Below, piece by piece: positions 1 to 10,860 of a stretch of 22,037 nucleotides of DNA (the first letter of the stretch is position 1; every line of letters starts with the position of its first letter). The stretch is taken from IMG/VR virus record IMGVR_UViG_3300030380_001432, positions 1 through 22,037 of that record. The stretch is one strand, 5' to 3'. The notes under the pieces are model-generated. The model was not told the origin of the DNA and made no database searches. It worked only from the letters and a program-made list of their open reading frames with translations. The position numbers and the translations under genes are program-made. The stretch comes from a virus.

Positions 1-194
1 GTGGTAGCGTTCCAATAGGACTAAACGAATTAGCGTTTGATAATGGTGCTGGTAATGATAAATTTAATGGAAACGTTAAATCTGTTGCAGTATTTAAAGA
101 AGCATTAGACAATGACGAATTAGAATGTTTAACTGGCGAAGGATTTTCATCATTTAATGCTTTAGCACAAGCAAACAACTATACAATAATATAA
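1..194 (+). CDS. C-terminal end of a LamG/concanavalin-like fibre protein (partial)
   Basis: The open frame enters from the left edge (first whole codon at base 3) and stops with TAA at 192-194, giving 63 residues. The part GSVPIGLNELAFDNGAG followed by NDKFNGNVKSVAVFKEAL aligns with the C-termini of the next fibre gene (LTPIGLDTLEFRLSG, then FFGKVREVQVFTEAK) and of the one at 2531. This is the last beta-strand block of a LamG/concanavalin-like lectin fold. Unlike the others it has an extra tail of about 18 residues (GEGFSSFNALAQANNYTII). It ends one base before the next ATG, so the two genes are probably co-transcribed. I infer a virion surface fibre or decoration protein that binds a glycan. 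The N-terminal domains are outside the window. Confidence 0.75.
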   Translation, partial: GSVPIGLNELAFDNGAGNDKFNGNVKSVAVFKEALDNDELECLTGEGFSSFNALAQANNYTII

Positions 195-195
195 T

Positions 196-2166
196 ATGGC
201 AGTAAAATTAGGAAATGGGAATTGGGCAGTAAAAGAAGATAAGCTATTAGCATATAACAATAATAGTGGTAGATTCTTTAATAAAGAGTTTGATTTTTCA
301 AGAGGGTCAAGTGCTACTTATGTCGCTAAAGATGGCTTAATTAAGACTGCTGGACTACAAGCAACTAATCTTGTAAACAACGGAGATTTTAGTGAACTTG
401 GGTCAGAGTTAGTTGTAAATGGTAATTTCGATACTGATAGTGATTGGTTTTTATCTGATTCAACTATTTCAAATGGAAAATTAAACATATCAACTACATC
501 TATAAACAATACTGCTCAACAGTCAATAACAAATCTTACAGTAGGAGAGAGTTATAAAATAGAGTACAATATAAATAGTATTTCAACTGGTGGACTTGTT
601 GTCTATGAATCATCACATATTAGACCACCTTATGAAACAAGTGTTGGTGTATATTCAAACACATTTATTGCAACTTCAACAACTCAAACAATATATGTCA
701 GAACATCTGGAACAACAACTGCAACAATAGACAACGTATCTGTTAAACAAGTAGACCCAAACGATTATTGGACTTTAGCAAGTAGCTGGAGTTTTGGAGA
801 TGGTGTTGCTAATTACACAGATACTGCAAATAATCAAATAGCACAATCTATTAATTTAAATGCTGGAACTTATAAATTAAAATTTAATATATCTAACGCA
901 ACAGGAAGTGGTGCAAGAATATGGATTGGTAATAGTGCTGGTGCTGTAAGTTATACAGATAACACATACCAAAATTACATAAATGGAGATTATACTATAA
1001 ATATAGTTGTACCAAGCAATCAAACTTCTTTTGCTTTTTATGGCAATCTTGCTGGTAGTTCTTTTTCTATTGACAACATATCAGTACAAGAAATACAAAC
1101 AGACACACCAAGAATAGACTTTAGTGATTCAGTTAAAGGTGCATTACTTTTAGAACCGCAGAGTACTAATTTATTAGAATTTAGTGAGAATTTAAAAAAA
1201 TATGAAAACTCTAATACAATTTGTACTTCTAACTATGCGATATCACCTGATGGAACTAAAAATGCTACCAGAGTAGATTTTACAGCATCTTTCACAAATG
1301 CTTTAGGTATAAATGGAACTGTTAATAATGGAGAAACAATAACTCAATCAGTTTTCGTAAAATATATAGATGCTCAATTTGTACAATTATGGTTTGGTTC
1401 AGGTGGTCTTGGTGGTGGTAACAGTAATTTTGATTTAATTAACGGAACAACATCAAATCCAAGTGGTTCATTAAGTACTATGAAAAATATGGGTAATGGT
1501 TGGTGGAGAATATCTTCAACAAGAACAGCTGCTTCTACAGCAAGTGACACTGGTGTTTTTAAATTAGTAGTTGTAGATTCTTTAACTTCAAGTAGATTTG
1601 GAGATGAAGCAAATGGCTCCGTTTTAGTTTTTGGTGGTCAATACGAAAAACTATCCTATCCAACTTCTTACATACCAACCTTTGGCTCTATTTCTACCCG
1701 AATCGCAGACGTATGTAATAACTCTGGTTCGGCACAAGACTTCAATTCAGAAGAGGGAGTATTGTATGCGGAGATAGCTGCACTTGCTAATGACGGAACT
1801 GTAAGATATTTAGCTTTATCAGACGGAACACATAATAACAGAGTAACTATATTATACTATGGTTTAGAAAACAGGATAAGGGCAATTGTTTCAAGTGGCG
1901 GTACTAACTCTATGGATAAAAACTTTATAGTTACATCTGTTTTAGATTTTCATAAAATTGCAGTTGTATTTAAAGAAAATGACTTTAGCCTTTGGATTGA
2001 TGGTTTTGAAAGGAGAACAGATACAAGTGGTTTAACACCTATTGGTTTAGACACATTAGAATTTCGGTTGAGTGGTGCAAATAATTTCTTTGGAAAAGTT
2101 AGAGAAGTACAAGTATTCACAGAAGCTAAATCCGATGCTTTTCTTCAGGCGCTAACAACAATATAA
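196..2166 (+). CDS. Large fibre/decoration protein with CBM-like and LamG-like domains
   Basis: The product has 656 residues. The N-terminus holds the phage-fibre signature FDFSRGSSATYV (about 32-43). Residues about 72-187 and 190-300 each look like a carbohydrate-binding module of the CBM4/9 type: the first starts ELVVNGNFD and ends ATIDNVSVKQV, and the second ends FSIDNISVQEI. Residues about 303-327 (DTPRIDFS, then GALLLEPQSTNLL) lead into a third beta-sandwich ending NGWWRIS...TSYIPTFGS (about 495). The last 140 residues, starting EEGVLYAEIAAL, are a LamG/concanavalin-like domain. It is probably an exposed fibre that binds host surface glycans. It lies upstream of the tail tube gene rather than after the hub gene, so attachment to the head or neck is as plausible as to the tail tip. 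Arginine codons are AGA/AGG/CGA/CGG only, with no CGT or CGC among 19, unlike the packaging genes. The ATG at 196 follows the previous stop by one base. Confidence 0.8.
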   Translation: MAVKLGNGNWAVKEDKLLAYNNNSGRFFNKEFDFSRGSSATYVAKDGLIKTAGLQATNLVNNGDFSELGSELVVNGNFDTDSDWFLSDSTISNGKLNISTTSINNTAQQSITNLTVGESYKIEYNINSISTGGLVVYESSHIRPPYETSVGVYSNTFIATSTTQTIYVRTSGTTTATIDNVSVKQVDPNDYWTLASSWSFGDGVANYTDTANNQIAQSINLNAGTYKLKFNISNATGSGARIWIGNSAGAVSYTDNTYQNYINGDYTINIVVPSNQTSFAFYGNLAGSSFSIDNISVQEIQTDTPRIDFSDSVKGALLLEPQSTNLLEFSENLKKYENSNTICTSNYAISPDGTKNATRVDFTASFTNALGINGTVNNGETITQSVFVKYIDAQFVQLWFGSGGLGGGNSNFDLINGTTSNPSGSLSTMKNMGNGWWRISSTRTAASTASDTGVFKLVVVDSLTSSRFGDEANGSVLVFGGQYEKLSYPTSYIPTFGSISTRIADVCNNSGSAQDFNSEEGVLYAEIAALANDGTVRYLALSDGTHNNRVTILYYGLENRIRAIVSSGGTNSMDKNFIVTSVLDFHKIAVVFKENDFSLWIDGFERRTDTSGLTPIGLDTLEFRLSGANNFFGKVREVQVFTEAKSDAFLQALTTI

Positions 2167-2168
2167 TT

Positions 2169-2501
2169 ATGAGAATAATCTTGTTCTTAATAGCGTTTAA
2201 TTCTCATGCGCAATTGCTATATGAACAAGATAAACAACAACATTTTATTGCTGGAACAGTTTTTTCAGCGCCAACTTATAGTGAAGTTTATTTAAAAACT
2301 GGTGACATTGGCAAAGCCTTTTCATATGGTTTATTAGCGTCAACTTTAGTAGGCACTGGCAAAGAATTAATTGATGATAGGTTTGATGAAAGGGATTTAA
2401 TGGCAACAATGCTTGGCGCTATTGCCGTTAATTCTGTATTAACAATTTATGTTGTTATAAACAAAAAGCATAAAAAAACACGTTTAAAAATACAACGATA
2501 A
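2169..2501 (+). CDS. Small exported/membrane protein, YfiM/DUF2279-like
   Basis: The product has 110 residues. The first 14 (MRIILFLIAFNSHA, then Q) form a short hydrophobic stretch ending in a plausible signal peptidase site. The body carries DKQQHFIAGTVFS (about 21-33), GKELIDDRF and DERDLMATMLGAIAVNS. The pattern DK-x-x-HF-x-x-G ... GKE-x-x-D ... D-x-D-L-x-A-x-x-x-G matches my memory of the YfiM/DUF2279 lipoprotein-like family. A hydrophobic segment (about 82-98) is followed by a basic tail (KKHKKTRLKIQR). It sits two bases after one fibre gene and before another, so expression with late structural genes is likely. The role is unknown. An envelope or lysis-related function such as a spanin-like helper is possible, but nothing in the sequence proves it. 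Confidence 0.5.
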   Translation: MRIILFLIAFNSHAQLLYEQDKQQHFIAGTVFSAPTYSEVYLKTGDIGKAFSYGLLASTLVGTGKELIDDRFDERDLMATMLGAIAVNSVLTIYVVINKKHKKTRLKIQR

Positions 2502-2514
2502 TTTTTGTATTTTT
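2486..2514 (+). repeat. 10-bp perfect inverted repeat overlapping a stop codon and a promoter box
   Basis: AAAAATACAA (2486-2495) and TTGTATTTTT (2505-2514) are exact reverse complements separated by 9 bases. The left arm lies in the last codons of the preceding gene and the right arm contains most of the TATTTTTG box. It could be a weak AT-only terminator, an operator over the promoter, or chance in AT-rich DNA. Confidence 0.5.
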
Positions 2515-2521
2515 GTGAAAA
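2504..2521 (+). promoter_or_regulatory. Putative late promoter, Bacteroidota -7 box TATTTTTG
   Basis: TATTTTTG at 2508-2515 fits TAnnTTTG, the -7 element described for Bacteroidota, and is directly preceded by TTTG. About 20 bases further upstream there is only TTTA (2483-2486) as a poor -33 candidate. The ATG of the next fibre gene starts 15 bases after the box, so the leader would be very short. The same motif TTTGTATTTTTGT recurs at 5437. Confidence 0.45.
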
Positions 2522-2530
2522 CATTTTTTT

Positions 2531-3799
2531 ATGTCAATACTCAATGATGCTAAATTAACGTTAATTCCTAGCGGTTATAAATCAACAAAAGTTTATTCTG
2601 TTAAACCAACAAATGGTGATGGCGATTTTACTTTTGCTAGGACTGGTGAAGCAACTCGGATAAATCCAGGTGGTAATATAGAAACAGTTGCAACTAACGT
2701 TCCAAGGATTGATCATTTTGGTGGGGGTTGCCCTTCACTATTATTAGAAGATGCAAGCACAAATCGCCAAGTAAATTCTGAAAAATTAGACAATGCAGAT
2801 TGGCAAAAACAAGCTGATTTAACTGTTGTTGCAAATCAAATTATATCGCCTTCAGGTGAACTTACTGCTGATAAGATACAAAGAGGATCAACAATCAACA
2901 CTAATAACTATATTGGCGATGCAGTAAATAAATCTTCAGCGGCTCAATTAGATATTGCCATTTCTGTTTTTGTAAAACAAGGTGAAGGCGATTTTTTTGC
3001 TATGAGGGCGCAAGGTGGTTATTCAACTGGTAGAGTAGATTTTATATATCAATTTAGCACAAACACAATAACTGCTAATGCACCTGGAACTGATGCTACT
3101 TTATTAAGTACAAAATCAGAAAGTTACGGAAATGGTTGGATTAGATTATCATTTGTTTTTAATTCTGATGCTAATGCCGCTAATTCAACATTTTTTAGCC
3201 CACGAGCAACAAGTGGTAATATTGATTCCTCTGATACATCATCAACTGCATTTGTTTATGTTTGGGGTTGTCAAGTTGAGGAAAACAGTTTTTCAACAAG
3301 TTATATTCCAACTACTACAACTTTAGCCACAAGAAATGCAGAAACTTGCGATGCTTCAGGTAATTCAAACATATTTAATGATTCAGAAGGTGTTTTATAT
3401 GCTGAAATAAGTGCTTTAGCTGATGATGGTACAGTAAGAGCTATATGTATATCGAATGGCACAGCAGGTGATGCAATAACTATAAGATATTCAGTATTGT
3501 TAAATTTAATTAGAGTAGAAATAAAAGATGGAAATGTACAACAATTCTTTTTTCAAACAACCTCATACAACTTTTTACAATTTGTAAAATTAGCAGTTAA
3601 ATATAAGGCTAATGATTGTAAAGTTTATATTAATGGTGTACAAGTTGCAACAGATACATCTGTTACAATTCCAAGTGGTTTAAACACACTTAATTTTGAC
3701 AGTGGTTCAGGTAATCAAAATTTCTACGGAAAATGCAAAGATTTAAGATATTACGATACATCATTAACAGATGCAGAATTAACAGAATTAACAACATAA
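2531..3799 (+). CDS. Second complete LamG-like fibre/decoration protein
   Basis: The product has 422 residues and parallels the C-terminal half of the 656-residue protein. It contains FTFARTGEATRINPGG (about 34-49), VPRIDHFGGGCPSLLLEDAS, a beta-sandwich from about 75 to 268 with SPSGELTADKIQ, ISVFVKQGEGDFFAMR and GNGWIRLSF and ending TSYIPTTTTLATR, then a LamG-like domain starting SEGVLYAEISALADDGTVR (about 283) and ending NFYGKCKDLRYYDTSL. It lacks the two CBM4/9-like modules of its neighbour. As for the neighbour, glycan binding on the virion surface is inferred from fold-level similarity. It has 14 arginine codons and none is CGT. It probably has its own promoter (2504-2521). The gene downstream starts 11 bases later. 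Confidence 0.8.
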   Translation: MSILNDAKLTLIPSGYKSTKVYSVKPTNGDGDFTFARTGEATRINPGGNIETVATNVPRIDHFGGGCPSLLLEDASTNRQVNSEKLDNADWQKQADLTVVANQIISPSGELTADKIQRGSTINTNNYIGDAVNKSSAAQLDIAISVFVKQGEGDFFAMRAQGGYSTGRVDFIYQFSTNTITANAPGTDATLLSTKSESYGNGWIRLSFVFNSDANAANSTFFSPRATSGNIDSSDTSSTAFVYVWGCQVEENSFSTSYIPTTTTLATRNAETCDASGNSNIFNDSEGVLYAEISALADDGTVRAICISNGTAGDAITIRYSVLLNLIRVEIKDGNVQQFFFQTTSYNFLQFVKLAVKYKANDCKVYINGVQVATDTSVTIPSGLNTLNFDSGSGNQNFYGKCKDLRYYDTSLTDAELTELTT

Positions 3800-3810
3800 A
3801 ATAAAATAAA

Positions 3811-4170
3811 ATGATAGTAAAAAAATATGAATTTCCAAATGAAGCCAAAGCCAATGAATATATAGCGGCGCTTGGCGTTGCTACTGATGAAGATGGCAAC
3901 GAATACCCAACGCATAAAAATGGCGTTGTTAAATTAGGTTTTATAATAACTAAACCTGGTGAATATGATGATGAAGGCAATGAAACACAAGCGCCTGAAT
4001 TTGCAGATAAATATTCAGTTGATGTTTGTTGGCGTGATACTATTCGCCCAATTGATCCTGAAACTGAAAAAGAAGGTTCTTTGCCTTATGACGCTTGGTC
4101 TGATTATGAAATAACTTTAGACAATGAAGGCGTGCATTCATTTTTTGGTTTAAAATATATTGAGGATTAA
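3811..4170 (+). CDS. Conserved-looking phage protein of unknown function
   Basis: The product has 119 residues and I do not recognise its family with confidence. It is acidic and soluble, with no signal peptide or membrane segment. Visible parts are an N-terminal alpha-beta start (MIVKKYEFPNEAKANEYIAALG), a Gly/Glu-rich middle (EYDDEGNETQAPEF) and an aromatic C-terminal strand region (SVDVCWRDT, AWSDYEITL, HSFFGLKYIED). It sits between the last fibre gene and the tail tube gene, 11 bases after the former, with an A-rich leader (ataaaataaaataaa) in place of a Shine-Dalgarno site. By position it could be a head-tail connector, tail completion protein or fibre chaperone, but the sequence does not decide between them. 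Confidence 0.65.
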   Translation: MIVKKYEFPNEAKANEYIAALGVATDEDGNEYPTHKNGVVKLGFIITKPGEYDDEGNETQAPEFADKYSVDVCWRDTIRPIDPETEKEGSLPYDAWSDYEITLDNEGVHSFFGLKYIED

Positions 4171-4227: not shown

Positions 4228-4635
4228 ATGGCTACTACGGGAGTTTTTAACGGAACAAACTTATTACTTAAAATTGAAGGTGCGACAGTCGGACACACAA
4301 CAAGTTGTTCACTTTCTTTGTCAATGGACACACCTGAAGCAACAACAAAAGATTCAAACGGATTTTCAGAATTTATCGGCGGCGTAAAAGGTGGCGAAAT
4401 ATCATTTGAAGGTTTAGTTGCTTATGATGATTCATCTAACGCAATTGAAATGGCTGATTTCTTATTAGCTAGAACACAATTAACATGTGTATTTGGAACT
4501 GCTGAAACTGGTGACGCAATTTATACTGCTGAAGGTTTTTTAAGTTCTGTTGAAATGTCAGCGGAAATGGAAGCTGCCGTTACTTATAGTGGATCAATCA
4601 CAATAACTGGCGCGATTACTAAATCAACTAACTAA
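4228..4635 (+). CDS. Major tail tube protein (TP901-1 family)
   Basis: The product has 135 residues, a normal size for siphovirus tail tube proteins. The start NGTNLLLKIEGATVGHTTSC, the middle TPEATTKDSNGFSEFIGG with KGGEISFEGLVAY, and the end (SSVEMSAEMEAAVTYSGS with ITITGAI) follow the TP901-1 major tail protein pattern: a beta-sandwich subunit that stacks as hexameric rings around the tape measure to form the DNA conduit. It has its own upstream promoter-like motif and a strong hairpin terminator just downstream, which would produce an abundant short transcript. The tail chaperone, tape measure and hub genes follow in canonical order. The start is fixed by an A-rich leader ending at the ATG. 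Confidence 0.85.
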   Translation: MATTGVFNGTNLLLKIEGATVGHTTSCSLSLSMDTPEATTKDSNGFSEFIGGVKGGEISFEGLVAYDDSSNAIEMADFLLARTQLTCVFGTAETGDAIYTAEGFLSSVEMSAEMEAAVTYSGSITITGAITKSTN

Positions 4636-5465: not shown

Positions 5466-7814
5466 ATGGCCGAATCAAATCTTAAATTAAATATTACCGG
5501 CGATTCGTCGAAATTAAAAAATGCATTAAGTTCAGCTAGTTCACAATTACAATCCTTTGGGAATAAAATGCAAACTGTTGGGCGTTCATTATCAACAAAA
5601 TTAACTTTACCTTTAGTTGCTGCTGGTACTGCGGCCACAAAATTAGCATTGGATTTTGATAAATCAATGACACAAATTGAATCATTGGTTGGCATTGCTG
5701 GTGATGAAGTTGCAAAAATGGGCGAAAATGCTAAAACAATGGCATTAGATACTGGTAGAAGCGCCAACGAAGCCGCAGAAGCATTGTTTTTTATAACATC
5801 TGCGGGTTTAAGGGGTGCTGATGCAACAGACACTTTAAACGCCTCTTTAAAAGCCGCTGCCGTTGGACTTGGCGAAACAAAAACAATTGCTGATTTGGCA
5901 ACATCGGCAATGAATGCTTATGGCGTTGAAAATTTAAACGCTACTGGTGCAACTGATATTTTAGTTGCCGCAGTTCGTGAAGGTAAATTAGAGGCTTCAG
6001 AATTAGCCGGTGCAATGGGTGGGGTAATTCCTATTGCTTCAAATATGGGTGTTGGCTTTGATGAAGTTGGTGCTGCAATGGCCGCAATGTCAAGAACGGG
6101 AACTAATGCTGCGGTTGGTGCTACTCAATTGACTGCAATATTAGCATCTATAAAAAAACCAACAGAACAAAGCGCCGAAGCAATGCATGCTTTAGGAACT
6201 TCTCAAGAAGAAATTTCTAAATCATTAGCTGAAAAAGGATTGATGCCAACGTTGTTAGATTTATCTGCAAGATTAAAAGCAACTGGAATGGATGCTAGTG
6301 CTATATTTCCAAACATTAGAGCGTTAAAGGGGGTTTTAGATTTGACTGGAAAAGGTGCTGCTGATAACGTTAAAATATTTGACGCTTTAGGCAATACAAT
6401 GGGCGCAACAGATGAAGCGTTTCAAAAGACATCTGAATCAGCATCATTCCAATTCAAACAAGGAATGGAAACAATGAAATCTTCATTATTAGAAATAGGC
6501 CAAATTATTTTACCTGCCGTTATTAAAGCGGTGCAATCATTATCAGGATTTATAAAAGGATTAAGTGATGGATTTAAAAATTTATCACCAACGACACAAA
6601 AAATTGCTTTAACTTTAGCTGGCATTGCCGCATCTGCTGGACCAGTTTTAATTATTTTTGGTAAAATAATGACTGGTTTATCTTCTTTAGGACCAATTTT
6701 AACAATAGTTACAACTGGATTTAGACTTTTAACGGCTGCAATGGTTGCTAATCCAATTTTAGCCGTTGCGGCTGCTATTGCGGCCGTAGTATTGGCTTTA
6801 AATAAATATAAAAAAGCACAAAAAGAAGCAACCGCTGAAACTGTTAAGACTTTAGATAAAAAACAAATTGATGATCGTTTAGAGGCTGCTGAAGCAGAAT
6901 TAAAATATTTAGATACATTAGAAGCAAAAAGACGTTTTTCAATTGGCGCTCACAAAGCAAAAACAAAAGAATTAAAAAATGAAATATTATTATTAAAAGA
7001 ACGTAAAACCGCTCTTGAACAAAATGTTTTAGCTGAAAAACAAGTTGCTGAACCACAAACAACATCAGATGTTTTTACTTTACCTGAAGTTGATGTTCCT
7101 AAAAAACGTCAAAAAGCAGTTGGTGTTTTAGATCAAACTGGTTTGAGTGCTGAAGGTATAAAAACTCCAATTACAGATTCAATTAAAGCCGATACCGCGG
7201 GAATACCTGCGGCGATTGCCGAACAAGGCGCAGTATTAACTGAAAATCAATTATTATTATTAGAGAAAGCTGCAATATTTCAACAACAAGCCGGTGAAAT
7301 AATGACTGCCGGAATGCAAAATATTGTTAGTGGTATGGCTGGCGCTATTGGAAATGCAATAACTAGTGGTGGCAATCTTATGGGTGCTTTAGGTGGTGTT
7401 ATAATTAGCGGTATTGCACAGATTGCTGAAAATTTAGGTCGTGCTGCCATTAAAATTGGTTTAACAATGAAAGCTATAAAAATGGCTTTTAAATCACCTG
7501 CAACTGCTATTGCAGCAGGTGTTGCTTTAATTGCAATATCCAAAGCAATACAATCTGTAATTCCAAAAATTGCTAGTGGTGAAGCAACTGCATTTGCCAG
7601 TGGTGGTATTGTAAGCGGGCCAACAATGGGATTGGTTGGTGAATATCCTGGTGCGCGTCAAAATCCTGAAGTTATAGCGCCATTAAATAAATTACAAGGA
7701 ATGATCGGTGGCGGAAATCAAAATGTAAATGTGACTGGAAACGTTTCTGTAAGTGGTCAAGATTTATTGATTGCCATTGAACGTGCTAATGAAACCGCTG
7801 ATCGAATTTACTAA
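5466..7814 (+). CDS. Tail tape measure protein
   Basis: The product has 782 residues and acts as a molecular ruler inside the tail tube, later released during DNA ejection. The N-terminal 330 residues match the TP901 tape-measure domain: FDKSMTQIESLVGIAGDEVAKM (in part), ALFFITSAGLRGADATDTLN, VAAVREGKLEASELAGAMGG and IKKPTEQSAEAMHALG. Hydrophobic segments follow at about 375-445 (IALTLAGIAASAGPVLIIFG, AAMVANPILAVAAAIAAVVL), then a charged coiled coil (about 446-525), further glycine/alanine-rich hydrophobic helices (about 610-705) and the usual C-terminal GGIVSGPTMGLVGEYPG. At the commonly used 0.15 nm per residue, the inferred tail is near 115-120 nm. It follows the chaperone pair, as expected. 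Confidence 0.9.
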   Translation: MAESNLKLNITGDSSKLKNALSSASSQLQSFGNKMQTVGRSLSTKLTLPLVAAGTAATKLALDFDKSMTQIESLVGIAGDEVAKMGENAKTMALDTGRSANEAAEALFFITSAGLRGADATDTLNASLKAAAVGLGETKTIADLATSAMNAYGVENLNATGATDILVAAVREGKLEASELAGAMGGVIPIASNMGVGFDEVGAAMAAMSRTGTNAAVGATQLTAILASIKKPTEQSAEAMHALGTSQEEISKSLAEKGLMPTLLDLSARLKATGMDASAIFPNIRALKGVLDLTGKGAADNVKIFDALGNTMGATDEAFQKTSESASFQFKQGMETMKSSLLEIGQIILPAVIKAVQSLSGFIKGLSDGFKNLSPTTQKIALTLAGIAASAGPVLIIFGKIMTGLSSLGPILTIVTTGFRLLTAAMVANPILAVAAAIAAVVLALNKYKKAQKEATAETVKTLDKKQIDDRLEAAEAELKYLDTLEAKRRFSIGAHKAKTKELKNEILLLKERKTALEQNVLAEKQVAEPQTTSDVFTLPEVDVPKKRQKAVGVLDQTGLSAEGIKTPITDSIKADTAGIPAAIAEQGAVLTENQLLLLEKAAIFQQQAGEIMTAGMQNIVSGMAGAIGNAITSGGNLMGALGGVIISGIAQIAENLGRAAIKIGLTMKAIKMAFKSPATAIAAGVALIAISKAIQSVIPKIASGEATAFASGGIVSGPTMGLVGEYPGARQNPEVIAPLNKLQGMIGGGNQNVNVTGNVSVSGQDLLIAIERANETADRIY

Positions 7815-7823
7815 AATTAAAAT

Positions 7824-10043
7824 ATGTCATACGGCGTTAAATACCAACTTGAATTTTCCGATGTTTTAGGATTTGGAAAAAAAATAGAAATATTAAAAAA
7901 AGATTATACTGACGAAATATATCCAATGATTGGTGCTGCTAATCCAGTTTCAATATCTTGGCAATCATCAGATGATTTTTATAAACCAATTATAGGTTCT
8001 AAATGTCAATTATCATTGATTGTTACAGATGAGGTTTCTTATGATGATTTTTATAAGTTTGACGAACGTGAATATAAAGTTGTTATTTATTATGCTAAAT
8101 CACAAGGTGAAATTTATTCGGATCGTGTTATTGCTGATGGTGGCGTTGTTGAATCTATTGAATGCATAAACGACACTTTAAATAATTTTATTTCTAAATC
8201 ACAACAATACGATGAACGCGTTGAAAACGATGGCGGAACAATTGAATCATTAAGTTGTGTTTCTGACGCTTTAAATGATGGTAATTATTATGAATGGTCT
8301 GCATATTGGTCTGGTTTTTTGGTTGTCGATAGGTATCGTGAAAAACTTATTACAAAACCATTTGGCGTTACATTTAATGCCTTTGATGGTTTAGGTACAT
8401 TAAACAATTTTGTTGCGCCAGTAAAAAGAGATTATAATGGAACTGGTGTTGCAAATTATTTTAAAGATGCCGAACGTATAGATTTAATTCTTGACAATCT
8501 TGGTTTAGATTTAGAGGTTCATTATATGAACGATATTCAATCTGATAAAATTTCAGGTGGCAATCCAAATAGAAAATTTTTTCCTGAATTTCGTTCAATA
8601 GAACCAGGTTTAACTGAACTAATAAAAGGCTACGATATACCGCTTGCAAAAGATCAATTAGCATTATTATTATCAACATACAATATGCGAATATTTCAAT
8701 CAATGAATAAATGGCACGTTGTAGAAGCAACAAATTTATTTGATAAATATGTTAAAGATGAAATATTTAATCAAGTTAATGGATCAGGAACTGTTCCAAC
8801 GGGAATAAGAAATAAAATTACAACACAATTACAAGAAACTAAAAAAGAATTTTTAAAATTACATAAATACAATACTAGTGGCGCTTTTGTTGAAACAACA
8901 GAAGAAAATGTTTTATTTGAAGTGCCTAATAAATTAAAACCAATTAAAAGTGATTTAGTTGTTGAATATTTACAAGGTATAAATGAAATTAAAACGCAAT
9001 CAAAAAACCTAAATAGAACTAAAGGGTTTTTTAATGCTGGTTTTGAATACGGATCAACTGGTTTTCAATTAAGTGGAACTGATATTGATGGAACAACTTT
9101 TCCAATTAGCATACCAATTATTAGCGTTGTTGATGATGATAATTCTTATCAAGGCACACAAAGTTTGAAAATGTTAGATGACATAAGATCATCAGGTCAA
9201 ACTTGTTTTATGTTAGATGACACAACAATAAATAATCCTTTGGAAGAAATTTTAAAATATTCATTTTCAATGCAATATAAATTTGTGTTTGACACGTCTG
9301 ATGATACTGGGATTTTAAATTCTTTTATTATAAGAATAAGAGCGCAAAGCATTAATAATCCAACTACACAATGGCGTGAATTTGATATTTCAAACAAAAA
9401 ATGGGTTTCAAATCCAAACACAATTGACAATGAAATTACTCAAGAAGATTTTAATAAATATAAAGAATTAAAATTTGATTTTACAAATACTGATTTTAAT
9501 GGCACTTCAGCACTTGGTGACGTTCATTTAAAAATTCAAATTCAAAGACCGGATTATCCATTTGGTAATTCTGACTATGTGACAACTTATTTTGATAATG
9601 TAATTTTAAGATTTGAAAATAATATAAGTGAAGATGAAATAACTTTAACGTCATTTATTGACAACAATAAAACGTTTACAACAACTAAAAAAGTTGATAG
9701 ATTATTTCAGGAACAAATTAAATTATTTAAACGCTCTCGTGATAGTTTTGGAATTTTTAGTAGTACTAATTTATTTAAAACAAATTACGAAATACAAAAT
9801 CAAAATATTGCCAATGACTTTAGAGAATTTGTTTCACGATATACGGGGACTTTTAGAGTCAATCAAGTAACGCCATTTTCAATGCACAATAAAATTTGGT
9901 TTAATTGGTCAAGTATTGAAGGCGATCCACAATCAACAATTGTAGATGGATTAATATATAATATAAAAGACGCTGAAATAAAAATAAAATCTCATCTTCC
10001 AAACGATGACGATGATGTAACAATTGACAATGTAACGAAATAA
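7824..10043 (+). CDS. Tail tip / baseplate hub-like protein
   Basis: The product has 739 residues and lies directly after the tape measure gene, where siphoviruses encode distal tail and hub proteins. The first 95 residues are beta-rich (YQLEFSDVLGFGKKIEILKK, YPMIGAANPVSISW, KPIIGSKCQLSLIV, YDDFYKFDEREYKVVIYYA) and resume at YWSGFLVVDRY and LITKPFGVTFNAFDGLGTLN (about 161-197), as in tail proteins I associate with Bacteroidota phages. Between these halves lies a tandem repeat with DGG cores (residues 98-153). The rest includes a hub-like stretch (DIPLAKDQLALLLSTYNMRI, about 271-290), a CBM-like sandwich (about 400-600: GFFNAGFEYGSTGF, YFDNVILRFE) and a final beta domain. No separate fibre genes follow; a terminator closes the operon. 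The exact homologous part (Dit, Tal or fused) cannot be settled by reading. Confidence 0.65.
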   Translation: MSYGVKYQLEFSDVLGFGKKIEILKKDYTDEIYPMIGAANPVSISWQSSDDFYKPIIGSKCQLSLIVTDEVSYDDFYKFDEREYKVVIYYAKSQGEIYSDRVIADGGVVESIECINDTLNNFISKSQQYDERVENDGGTIESLSCVSDALNDGNYYEWSAYWSGFLVVDRYREKLITKPFGVTFNAFDGLGTLNNFVAPVKRDYNGTGVANYFKDAERIDLILDNLGLDLEVHYMNDIQSDKISGGNPNRKFFPEFRSIEPGLTELIKGYDIPLAKDQLALLLSTYNMRIFQSMNKWHVVEATNLFDKYVKDEIFNQVNGSGTVPTGIRNKITTQLQETKKEFLKLHKYNTSGAFVETTEENVLFEVPNKLKPIKSDLVVEYLQGINEIKTQSKNLNRTKGFFNAGFEYGSTGFQLSGTDIDGTTFPISIPIISVVDDDNSYQGTQSLKMLDDIRSSGQTCFMLDDTTINNPLEEILKYSFSMQYKFVFDTSDDTGILNSFIIRIRAQSINNPTTQWREFDISNKKWVSNPNTIDNEITQEDFNKYKELKFDFTNTDFNGTSALGDVHLKIQIQRPDYPFGNSDYVTTYFDNVILRFENNISEDEITLTSFIDNNKTFTTTKKVDRLFQEQIKLFKRSRDSFGIFSSTNLFKTNYEIQNQNIANDFREFVSRYTGTFRVNQVTPFSMHNKIWFNWSSIEGDPQSTIVDGLIYNIKDAEIKIKSHLPNDDDDVTIDNVTK
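8115..8282 (+). repeat. Tandem DGG-motif protein repeat inside the hub gene
   Basis: Residues 98-122 (YSDRVIADGGVVESIECINDT and on) and 129-153 (YDERVENDGGTIESLSCVSD and on) share R-V-x-x-D-G-G-x-x-E-S-(I/L)-x-C-(I/V)-x-D-(T/A)-L-N at a spacing of 31 residues. It interrupts an otherwise continuous beta-rich domain. Confidence 0.75.
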
Positions 10044-10066
10044 ATAAACTTTGTTTTGTTTGTCGG

Positions 10067-10102
10067 CCCTCGTAATTTCTTTATGATTTGCGGGGGTTTT
10101 TT
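10067..10102 (+). terminator. Rho-independent terminator closing the tail operon
   Basis: CCCTCGTAA (10067-10075) pairs with TTGCGGGGG (10088-10096) over 9 bp including two G-U pairs, followed by six T (10097-10102). It separates the late tail genes from the early replication block. It also makes a start upstream of it for the next reading frame very unlikely. Confidence 0.8.
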
Positions 10103-10133
10103 GTTAAAATATTTTTTTTATTTAAAAATTTTT

Positions 10134-10144
10134 TTTTACTTTTG
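10134..10144 (+). promoter_or_regulatory. Putative early promoter, TACTTTTG box
   Basis: TACTTTTG (10137-10144) is an exact TAnnTTTG match, 22 bases before the ATG of the HTH gene and just after the tail terminator. The longer form TTTTACTTTTG resembles TTTTACTTTG at 11200 and TTTTACTTTTAG at 13504, but not the late-type TTTGTAT elements. No clear -33 TTTG is seen. Confidence 0.5.
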
Positions 10145-10166
10145 TTTTTCATTAAAACAGAAAACT

Positions 10167-10364
10167 ATGTTTGAAAACCATTTCAAGGCGGAAATGAAGC
10201 GCCTTAATTTAAAGCGTTATGATGTTTGTAAATTGATACAATGCACAATGCCAACGCTTAAATCTAGATTACAAAATCCTGAATCTTTTATAATTGCTGA
10301 AGTTTTAATTTTGCAAAATGCTGGTTTTAATTTCTCACAATTTCAATTAATAATAAACGATTAA
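10167..10364 (+). CDS. Small helix-turn-helix protein, possible regulator
   Basis: The ATG at 10167 gives 65 residues. A longer in-frame reading from 10056 would run through the terminator and encode a Phe/Leu/Tyr-rich nonsense-like leader, so I reject it. Residues about 12-40 (LNLKRYDVCKLIQCTMPTLK, then SRLQNPESF) look like a helix-turn-helix of Cro/CI or phage-regulator type: a helix, a short turn, then a recognition helix starting TMPTLKSRL. It is the first gene after the tail operon and has its own promoter-like box, so it may control the early operon or the early/late switch. The HTH call rests on pattern only. There is no partner domain for cleavage or oligomerisation. Confidence 0.55.
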   Translation: MFENHFKAEMKRLNLKRYDVCKLIQCTMPTLKSRLQNPESFIIAEVLILQNAGFNFSQFQLIIND

Positions 10365-10374
10365 ATTTAATTAT

Positions 10375-10860
10375 ATGAAAACAATAAACATTAAAGGCAA
10401 AGAATATATAACAGTTAATGAACGTTTAAAATATTTTAGAAGCGAATCCACATTTGATGGTTGGCAAATTACTGAACAATTAGTTCATATTGATGACAAA
10501 GAAGGTGTATTTAAGGTGATTATATCTGACGACAAAGGTGTTGAAATAGCATCCGCACATTCACAAGAATACAGAGATAGTTCTTATATAAATAAAACGT
10601 CATTTGTTGAAAACGGATTTACTTCTGCATTGGGGCGCGCTTTGGGTTATTTAGGTATTGGAATTGACACTTCAATTGCATCTGCAAATGAGGTTCAAAA
10701 TGCCGTAAAAAATCAATCATCTGACAATAAAAAATGGCTTACAGAAGCACAATTAAACGCAACTTTAAAAGCAACTAAATCACAAGCGGAAAAGGTATTA
10801 TCCGGCTTTAAAATGAAAAAACAATACCGCGAACAAATAAAACAAAAATTTAATATTTAA
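10375..10860 (+). CDS. Putative single-strand annealing / recombination protein
   Basis: The product has 161 residues. The core contains EYITVNERLKYFR, FDGWQITEQLVHI, GVEIASAHSQEYRDSS and the strongly patterned TSFVENGFTSALGRALGYLG followed by IGIDTSIASANEVQNA (about residues 79-115). TS-x-x-EN-x-x-TSA-x-GRALG-x-LGIGID recurs in phage proteins placed beside SSB-like and exonuclease genes. I associate it with the Rad52-like annealing proteins (Sak/ERF/DUF1071 group), but I cannot confirm that fold. The C-terminal 45 residues are Lys/Gln-rich and probably helical. The SSB-like gene starts 10 bases downstream and a RecE-like nuclease follows, which supports a two-component (exonuclease plus annealing protein) recombination role. 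Confidence 0.5.
   Translation: MKTINIKGKEYITVNERLKYFRSESTFDGWQITEQLVHIDDKEGVFKVIISDDKGVEIASAHSQEYRDSSYINKTSFVENGFTSALGRALGYLGIGIDTSIASANEVQNAVKNQSSDNKKWLTEAQLNATLKATKSQAEKVLSGFKMKKQYREQIKQKFNI

Follow-up and report, generated by a model that had tools for sequence, protein, structure and literature searches.

To our knowledge, receptor-binding fibres carried on the head have been characterized well in only a few tailed particles, a clear case being RcGTA. The RcGTA head spike is described as a pentamer of the jelly-roll base Rcc01079 holding one fibre, Rcc01080, residues 2–10 of which (IALGLGLGL) form a five-point star inside the base pentamer (PMC7296036); the spikes are described there and in a second source as binding capsule polysaccharide (PMC7296036; PMC10218006), and the two genes bear the consecutive locus numbers rcc01079 and rcc01080 (PMC8601537). 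The same spike-fibre domain occurs on the baseplate proteins gp45 of E217 (PDB 8env) and gp46 of Pa193 (PDB 9b45). Here, three neighbouring fibre genes, LG1, LG2 and LG3, are analysed at the left end of a virus record of IMG/VR (IMGVR_UViG_3300030380_001432), the whole of which, 22,037 bases classed as linear, constitutes the window. From the gene order, domain identities, anchor genes, matching of anchor type to fibre class and hub motif computed in this work, we infer that the three genes probably encode glycan-binding virion fibres of a single family, and that matched short peptides would mount them at both the head and the tail end of the particle. The fibre genes and their recognizable domains are as follows.

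3..194, plus strand: LG1, C-terminal fragment (63 codons) of a class C (TPTAY) fibre gene that runs off the left edge, predicted to be a head-spike fibre
196..2166, plus strand: LG2, a class B fibre (LKFGNG-type start) of 656 amino acids, with N-terminal beta modules, a spike-fibre domain and a LamG-like end
1147..1704, plus strand: spike-fibre domain of LG2 (NF048003), residues 318–503
2531..3799, plus strand: LG3, a class A (IPSGY) lectin fibre of 422 amino acids, predicted to be a tail-tip fibre
2741..3340, plus strand: spike-fibre domain of LG3, residues 71–270, between the N-terminal stretch and the remaining LamG fold
3458..3781, plus strand: LamG domain of LG3, to which Pfam assigns residues 310–417 and the model adds residues from the N-terminus

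The original prediction had described three tandem LamG-type genes with paralogous C-termini. Two of them are complete, while the third is present only as its last 63 codons, and a gene for a 110-amino-acid protein parts LG2 from LG3. The paralogy itself was borne out: in a search among the three sequences, residues 297–655 of LG2 aligned with residues 50–422 of LG3 at 34% identity (E = 1.5e-49), a common region spanning the C-terminal 360–380 residues, and LG1, with about 44 residues in common, matched both LG3 (42% over 43 amino acids, E = 6e-9) and LG2 (43% over 44 amino acids, E = 1e-6). The LamG label applies to LG3, which passes the cut-off of Pfam PF13385 (33.0 bits against 27.6), but LG2 remains below it (23.1 bits) and LG1 gives no match; moreover, the common part also includes the NCBIfam 'phage head spike fiber domain' NF048003 (cut-off 36 bits), found in LG2 with 110.3 bits (E = 1.5e-31) and in LG3 with 112.5 bits (E = 3.2e-32). 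LG1 is cut by the contig edge before this domain. The two CBM4/9-like modules proposed for LG2 are plausible by eye, given the repeated NGxF..IDNxSV pattern, although none exceeds a Pfam or NCBIfam cut-off.

In single-sequence searches of the PDB, LG3 matches Rcc01080, the head spike fibre of RcGTA (E = 1.3e-20), whereas LG2 yields no match with an E-value of 1 or lower; LG2 matches the tail-protein family phrog_5939 (E = 8e-39). A profile of 36 fibres again places Rcc01080 first (E = 4.6e-52), followed by E217 gp45 (E = 5e-28), and also finds the Pa193 baseplate protein, tail fibre gp17 and the lectin-type domains of sialidases (CBM40) and of an arabinanase (AbnA). In the AlphaFold model of LG3 (mean pLDDT 92), the spike domain (residues 55–276) matches E217 gp45 with Z = 22.0 and an rmsd of 3.2 over 210 residues, and Pa193 gp46 with Z = 25.1; these two are baseplate proteins, and none carrying the domain was recognized in this clade, for which no separate search was made. 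Domain 4 of AbnA aligns with 197 of its 206 residues over the model range 1–422 (Z = 18.0). With no more than 146 residues left after position 276, LG3 must complete the lectin fold with residues from earlier in the chain; according to the aligned ranges, these would most simply come from the N-terminal stretch, the spike domain being inserted in the fold. With the lectin fold spanning both of its ends, LG3 would therefore possess no separate N-terminal docking domain. Its N- and C-terminal parts share their fold with LamG and CBM40 lectins, from which LG3 differs by the inserted spike-fibre domain. Botulinum and tetanus toxins among the fold matches reflect the common lectin fold only and were set aside.

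Relatives were defined using the hub candidate described below as the query: 121 loci were confirmed and the best 80 kept, full contigs standing in for 15 of these; together with the window, they make up 81 sources. The N-terminal anchor peptide of the RcGTA fibre prompted a scan of these relatives for similar starts. A Leu/Gly anchor start was absent from every fibre N-terminus listed; an anchor-like start, M[ILF]GLG[LI].., begins a separate gene of 42–85 amino acids that, in several relatives, directly precedes the first fibre gene. Immediately before this anchor gene, and to the left of the window in the relatives' order, lies a 90-amino-acid gene, ORF90, which is predicted to fold as a jelly roll of six strands (pLDDT 84 for the best AlphaFold model). 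By profile, ORF90 is present in 10 of the 81 sources, nine of which have the anchor gene (counting L079). A scan for ORF90 confirmed 89 loci, and in 78 of the best 80, which were kept, the anchor gene starts +2 to +11 nucleotides after ORF90; the two remaining loci, L184 and L185, have variant anchors (MIVLGV and MLGLYN). Residues 3 and 5 of the anchor are glycine and residue 8 is hydrophobic (I, L, V, F or M) in 78 of 78, while residue 10 is hydrophobic in 44; the search pattern partly fixed the hydrophobic residues at positions 2, 4 and 6, position 8 being unselected. The anchor of L190 runs to the contig end, and its length may be too short.

The arrangement shares with the RcGTA spike (PDB 6tb9, 6tba, 6tsu and 6tui) a homologous fibre domain, an alternating hydrophobic–Gly N-terminal peptide and, going by the consecutive RcGTA locus numbers, a predicted jelly-roll partner encoded just upstream. 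On the other hand, RcGTA has its anchor within the fibre and the anchor is here a separate protein with one of three ends, ORF90 has no sequence similarity to the RcGTA base, and the fibres also carry a LamG fold around the spike domain. The system would work in the manner of an RcGTA head spike but was not classed as one, as the fibre has no anchor of its own and the base is a candidate only. LG1 can be placed in this arrangement through one relative, L118, whose class C fibre (6410–8917) is identical to LG1 in 62 of the 63 C-terminal residues and is directly preceded by ORF90 (6001–6273) and an anchor gene of type T1 (6280–6441). At the DNA level, the window matches L118 at 94.4% over positions 1–447 and at 98.3% over 725–845, no match being reported between the two segments.

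Anchor proteins end in one of three ways: ..RATYFEN.. (T1), ..RVxADGGxxEaxxC.. (T2) or ..FIILESGGFVLAEN.. (T3). A T1 anchor is followed by a class C (TPTAY) fibre gene (43 loci), a T2 anchor by a class A (IPSGY) fibre gene (23 loci) and a T3 anchor by a KKFSDF fibre gene (six loci), without a single mismatch among the 72 typed of the 78 loci, which represent 41 distinct combinations; the class A pattern in this count also accepts IPTAV (L193). The untyped loci comprise two with T1 anchors (L138, at a contig end, and L187, whose fibre starts with SPTAY) and four without room for a fibre start. After de-duplication, which removed loci only where the first 150 nucleotides were identical, all 22 class C starts lie behind a T1 anchor; class A starts are found behind T2 (11), without an anchor (49) or without room for one (three), and KKFSDF starts behind T3 (five) or, in G003, without an anchor. 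A second apparent KKFSDF start lacking an anchor proved to be a primase and was dropped. On the ORF90 tree, in which L184 and L185 were typed by eye, there are about six changes of type (bootstrap 5–7 for T1), and the well supported branches force at least two for T1.

The T2 motif recurs outside the anchor genes, in the protein encoded directly after the tape measure.

7824..10043, plus strand: tail-tip hub candidate, 739 amino acids, assigned by its position directly after the tape measure gene
8124..8165, plus strand: ADGG copy 1 in the hub, RVIADGGVVESIEC, a proposed fibre plug
8217..8258, plus strand: ADGG copy 2 in the hub, RVENDGGTIESLSC

The name hub was given because of this position, no family scoring above its cut-off: there is no NCBIfam match and no significant PDB match, and Pfam and PHROG give weak matches only (best E = 0.002). 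Within the motif, R101, G107, E110 and C114 are invariant in 32 of 32 aligned hubs, two of which were missed by a looser full-motif pattern. Hubs with one or two ADGG copies by pattern occur in 80 of the 81 sources, and one residue of the motif is undetermined in L033, the remaining source; in L012 and L013 the T1 motif stands in place of the second copy. Two copies are found in 11 of 13 sources with class B fibres and in 34 of 68 others, and a link between class B and copy number was dropped. In a collection of 146 sources, the strict ADGG pattern occurs in 104 open reading frames (ORFs), of which 76 are long (at least 150 hub-profile positions), 21 short, six neck-type and one a tail tube. 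The short ones represent ten distinct sequences, all of them anchors. Seven of the ADGG ORFs measure 150–300 amino acids, namely the L185 tube and the six neck-type ORFs, each the last small protein of a presumed connector cluster; one of the six had been tabled as hub-covering through two stray matches.

The neck-type family comprises 74 proteins in 150 sources. A C-terminal extension ending in ADGG, for example ..YRNQYTDRIVADGGQYESIECATDVLYNQ, is found by pattern in G004, G008, G009, L042, L050 and L188 and by eye in L190; 27 members have no extension or a short one, and 41, among which L190 was tabled, have a longer extension without the pattern, mostly resembling ..GGLQSELQNELQS. A docking site at the neck is thus possible in the seven relatives with the ADGG extension, in five of which (G004, G008, G009, L042 and L050) ORF90 is absent by profile. 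Separately, the tail tube of L185 (9143–9634) is a variant form, an ADGG-type motif, FAERVGADSGTMEALNC, being inserted close to the N-terminus, which makes fibre docking along the tail of this relative possible.

We propose that ORF90 would form a jelly-roll base at the capsid vertices and grip the N-terminal [ILF]-G-L-G-[LI] strand of the anchor protein, much as the pentamer of RcGTA grips its fibre. The other half of the anchor would bind fibres of the class that goes with its type (C with T1, A with T2, KKFSDF with T3), and LG1, of class C, would accordingly serve as the head-spike fibre. In the tail tip, LG3 and other class A fibres would be bound by the one or two T2 copies of the hub. 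Through their lectin domains, the fibres would attach to surface polysaccharide reversibly and at many points before commitment of the tail. The best predicted reading of LG1 is a head spike, because class C fibres always follow an RcGTA-like anchor, and a tail-tip fibre, encoded by a moved receptor-binding gene, is the better predicted reading of LG3, because class A fibres occur with or without an anchor and ADGG recurs in the hub. The original prediction had left open whether the genes encode head or neck fibres or a receptor-binding set that has moved; the former suits LG1 and the latter LG3. In a broader version of the proposal, to which we give slightly less than an even chance, exchangeable motifs (ADGG; RATYFEN; FIILE..FVLAE) would act as a plug-and-socket code that sets which fibre class is mounted on a head-vertex anchor, the end of a neck protein, a hub loop or the tube. 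One fibre family could then decorate any part of the virion, and the sugar bound at each place would be changeable by swapping a peptide of about 25 residues. The presence of ADGG also at the ends of neck-type proteins raises the chance of such a code.

Several observations weigh against the distribution of LG1 and LG3 between head and tail. Two of the five AlphaFold models of ORF90 scored only 47–55, and the fold matches are weak (best Z = 6.3, best Foldseek E = 0.004), including a capsid chain of phage Carin1, the turret of the archaeal virus HFTV1 and nucleoplasmins; the RcGTA base, to which ORF90 also has no sequence match, is not among the fold matches listed, an absence that proves nothing. 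G006 encodes a divergent ORF90 of 99 amino acids followed by a class A fibre and no anchor, and G003 (L088, minus strand, start near 1561) has its KKFSDF fibre without anchor or ORF90. None of the 23 de-duplicated class B starts lies behind an anchor, which leaves class B, and with it LG2, without a docking site in the scheme, and no contig with a T1-type hub showed its fibre genes, including those from a scan that gave 44 loci related to the L012 hub. In addition, anchor type and fibre class are encoded side by side, and their matching may reflect a single inherited cassette: adjacent genes may move as one block, therefore matching alone is no proof of contact. That the pairing is mere hitch-hiking and the motifs are no docking sites would agree with the few tens of bases separating anchor and fibre genes, exchangeable as a block, and with the small number of type changes, as few as two of which are forced for T1. 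We nevertheless give this explanation about one chance in four, as the motifs also occur outside the cassette, ADGG in hubs, neck-type proteins and one tube and T1 in two hubs.

The placement of the fibres may likewise be read differently. Since the spike-fibre domain is also found in the E217 and Pa193 baseplates and in tail fibre gp17, no head placement follows from the domain, and all LamG fibres might be tail fibres, located at the tip, at the neck end or along the tube, brought to their present position by simple gene relocation, with the ORF90–anchor pair serving as a tail or neck decoration. The nearest named families being tail proteins, as exemplified by phrog_5939, the fibre genes abutting the tail tube, and the motif being present on the L185 tube and on neck-type proteins of seven relatives would all be accommodated. 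This is, however, somewhat improbable in our view, given that the anchor peptide follows the pattern of the RcGTA head anchor and is preceded by a predicted jelly-roll gene, reminiscent of the consecutive numbering of rcc01079 and rcc01080 (PMC8601537). Assigning all three proteins to the head or neck appears the least credible reading: although the best solved relative of the domain is a head spike fibre, the clade possesses an anchor gene and some relatives carry ADGG on the neck-type protein, the 49 class A starts without an upstream anchor and all class B starts, the class A-linked motif of the hub, and the absence of an ADGG neck extension from the close relatives of the window, G001 and G002, speak against it. 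Glycan-binding fibres distributed over both ends of the particle are thus the reading that we favour.

The position of the fibre genes is a trait of the clade. The original prediction had placed them upstream of the tail tube gene, which proved correct, with a further gene, o119, between LG3 and the tube; indeed, a fibre-family gene ends at most 1.8 kb upstream of the tube in every one of the 41 sources whose sequence extends 1.8 kb or more before it. Such genes were also looked for directly after the hub, and none was found within 3 kb downstream of it in the 45 sources that continue for 2 kb or more past the hub; the usual siphovirus arrangement, with fibre genes directly after the tape measure and hub genes, is not seen here. 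The clade order runs from terminase and portal through presumed capsid, connector and lysis genes (assigned by eye) to the fibre module, tube, tape measure, hub and early genes, and the eight contigs unbroken from portal to tube (G001, G002, G004, G005, G006, G008, G009 and G015) all encode a class A fibre. The window reads LG1 (cut), LG2, the 110-amino-acid gene, LG3, o119, tail tube, a small tail protein (phrog_2115, a chaperone by position), tape measure, hub candidate, early genes, terminase, portal and a cut gene. The remaining features of interest are as follows.

2169..2501, plus strand: protein of 110 amino acids between LG2 and LG3, with a signal-peptide-like start by eye and weak similarity to the YfiM lipoprotein
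3811..4170, plus strand: o119, a protein of 119 amino acids of the fibre module, between LG3 and the tube, with homologues in 48 of the 81 sources
4228..4635, plus strand: tail tube protein (Pfam Phage_tail_2, PF06199, E = 8e-12)

The 110-amino-acid protein matches the lipoprotein family phrog_26616 (E = 4e-5) and, far below the cut-off, NF008028 (E = 5e-6), and its gene occurs in four of the 81 sources, including the window. For o119, present in two copies in G001, neither a Pfam or NCBIfam family above cut-off nor a significant PDB match was found; at a guess, it is a candidate fibre-assembly partner or chaperone. The terminator postulated after the hub was not recovered, as positions 9900–10450 contain no terminator-like site on the plus strand, one being found on the minus strand. 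The ORF that follows the hub (10056–10364) encodes 102 amino acids here and only 65 in many relatives, for which reason its TTG start is probably placed too early.

Across the relatives, the tube is conserved (81–98% identity) and the fibres are much less so, being about 26–69% identical to LG3 or LG2. End repeats of 49, 83 and 141 bases were found in three relative contigs, and in G004 (L090, L091) the terminase and primase genes are interrupted, by assembly error or decay. Among cultured relatives, the window DNA gave no match and hub, tube and ORF90 no tblastn match; the TerL matches listed are approximately 39–40% identical, and 97 of 1377 TerL records belong to Bacteroides phages. A host assignment was attempted by searching genome contigs with the hub profile, but the two contigs of metagenome-assembled genomes retrieved (Flavobacteriaceae and Rhodobiaceae) were insufficient to name a host, the Rhodobiaceae contig having the same length (19,158 bp) as the IMG virus contig L204, with the match at nearly the same position. 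Nonlabens phage P12024S (NC_018271) encodes a class A-like fibre, gp10 (34.7% identity over residues 4–260 of LG3), and a small protein, gp05, that carries the motif NRVIEDGGVFESTACL; it differs in its gene order, in having no ORF90 match in the phage collection and in the absence of an anchor-type start from the 27,304 of its 35,700 bases that were scanned.

Among the open-access papers searched, none was retrieved on LamG in connection with tail fibres of flavobacterial phages or on head fibres of uncultivated flavobacterial phages, and the titles and abstract openings listed mention no split anchor. If the proposal is true, a split anchor with exchangeable ends would allow head spikes of uncultured phages to be recognized by a sequence signature, and which fibre sits where on the particle would become predictable from sequence. 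It would also account for the placement of the fibre module between head and tail genes, and would give these phages a simple route to vary glycan binding at both ends of the virion.

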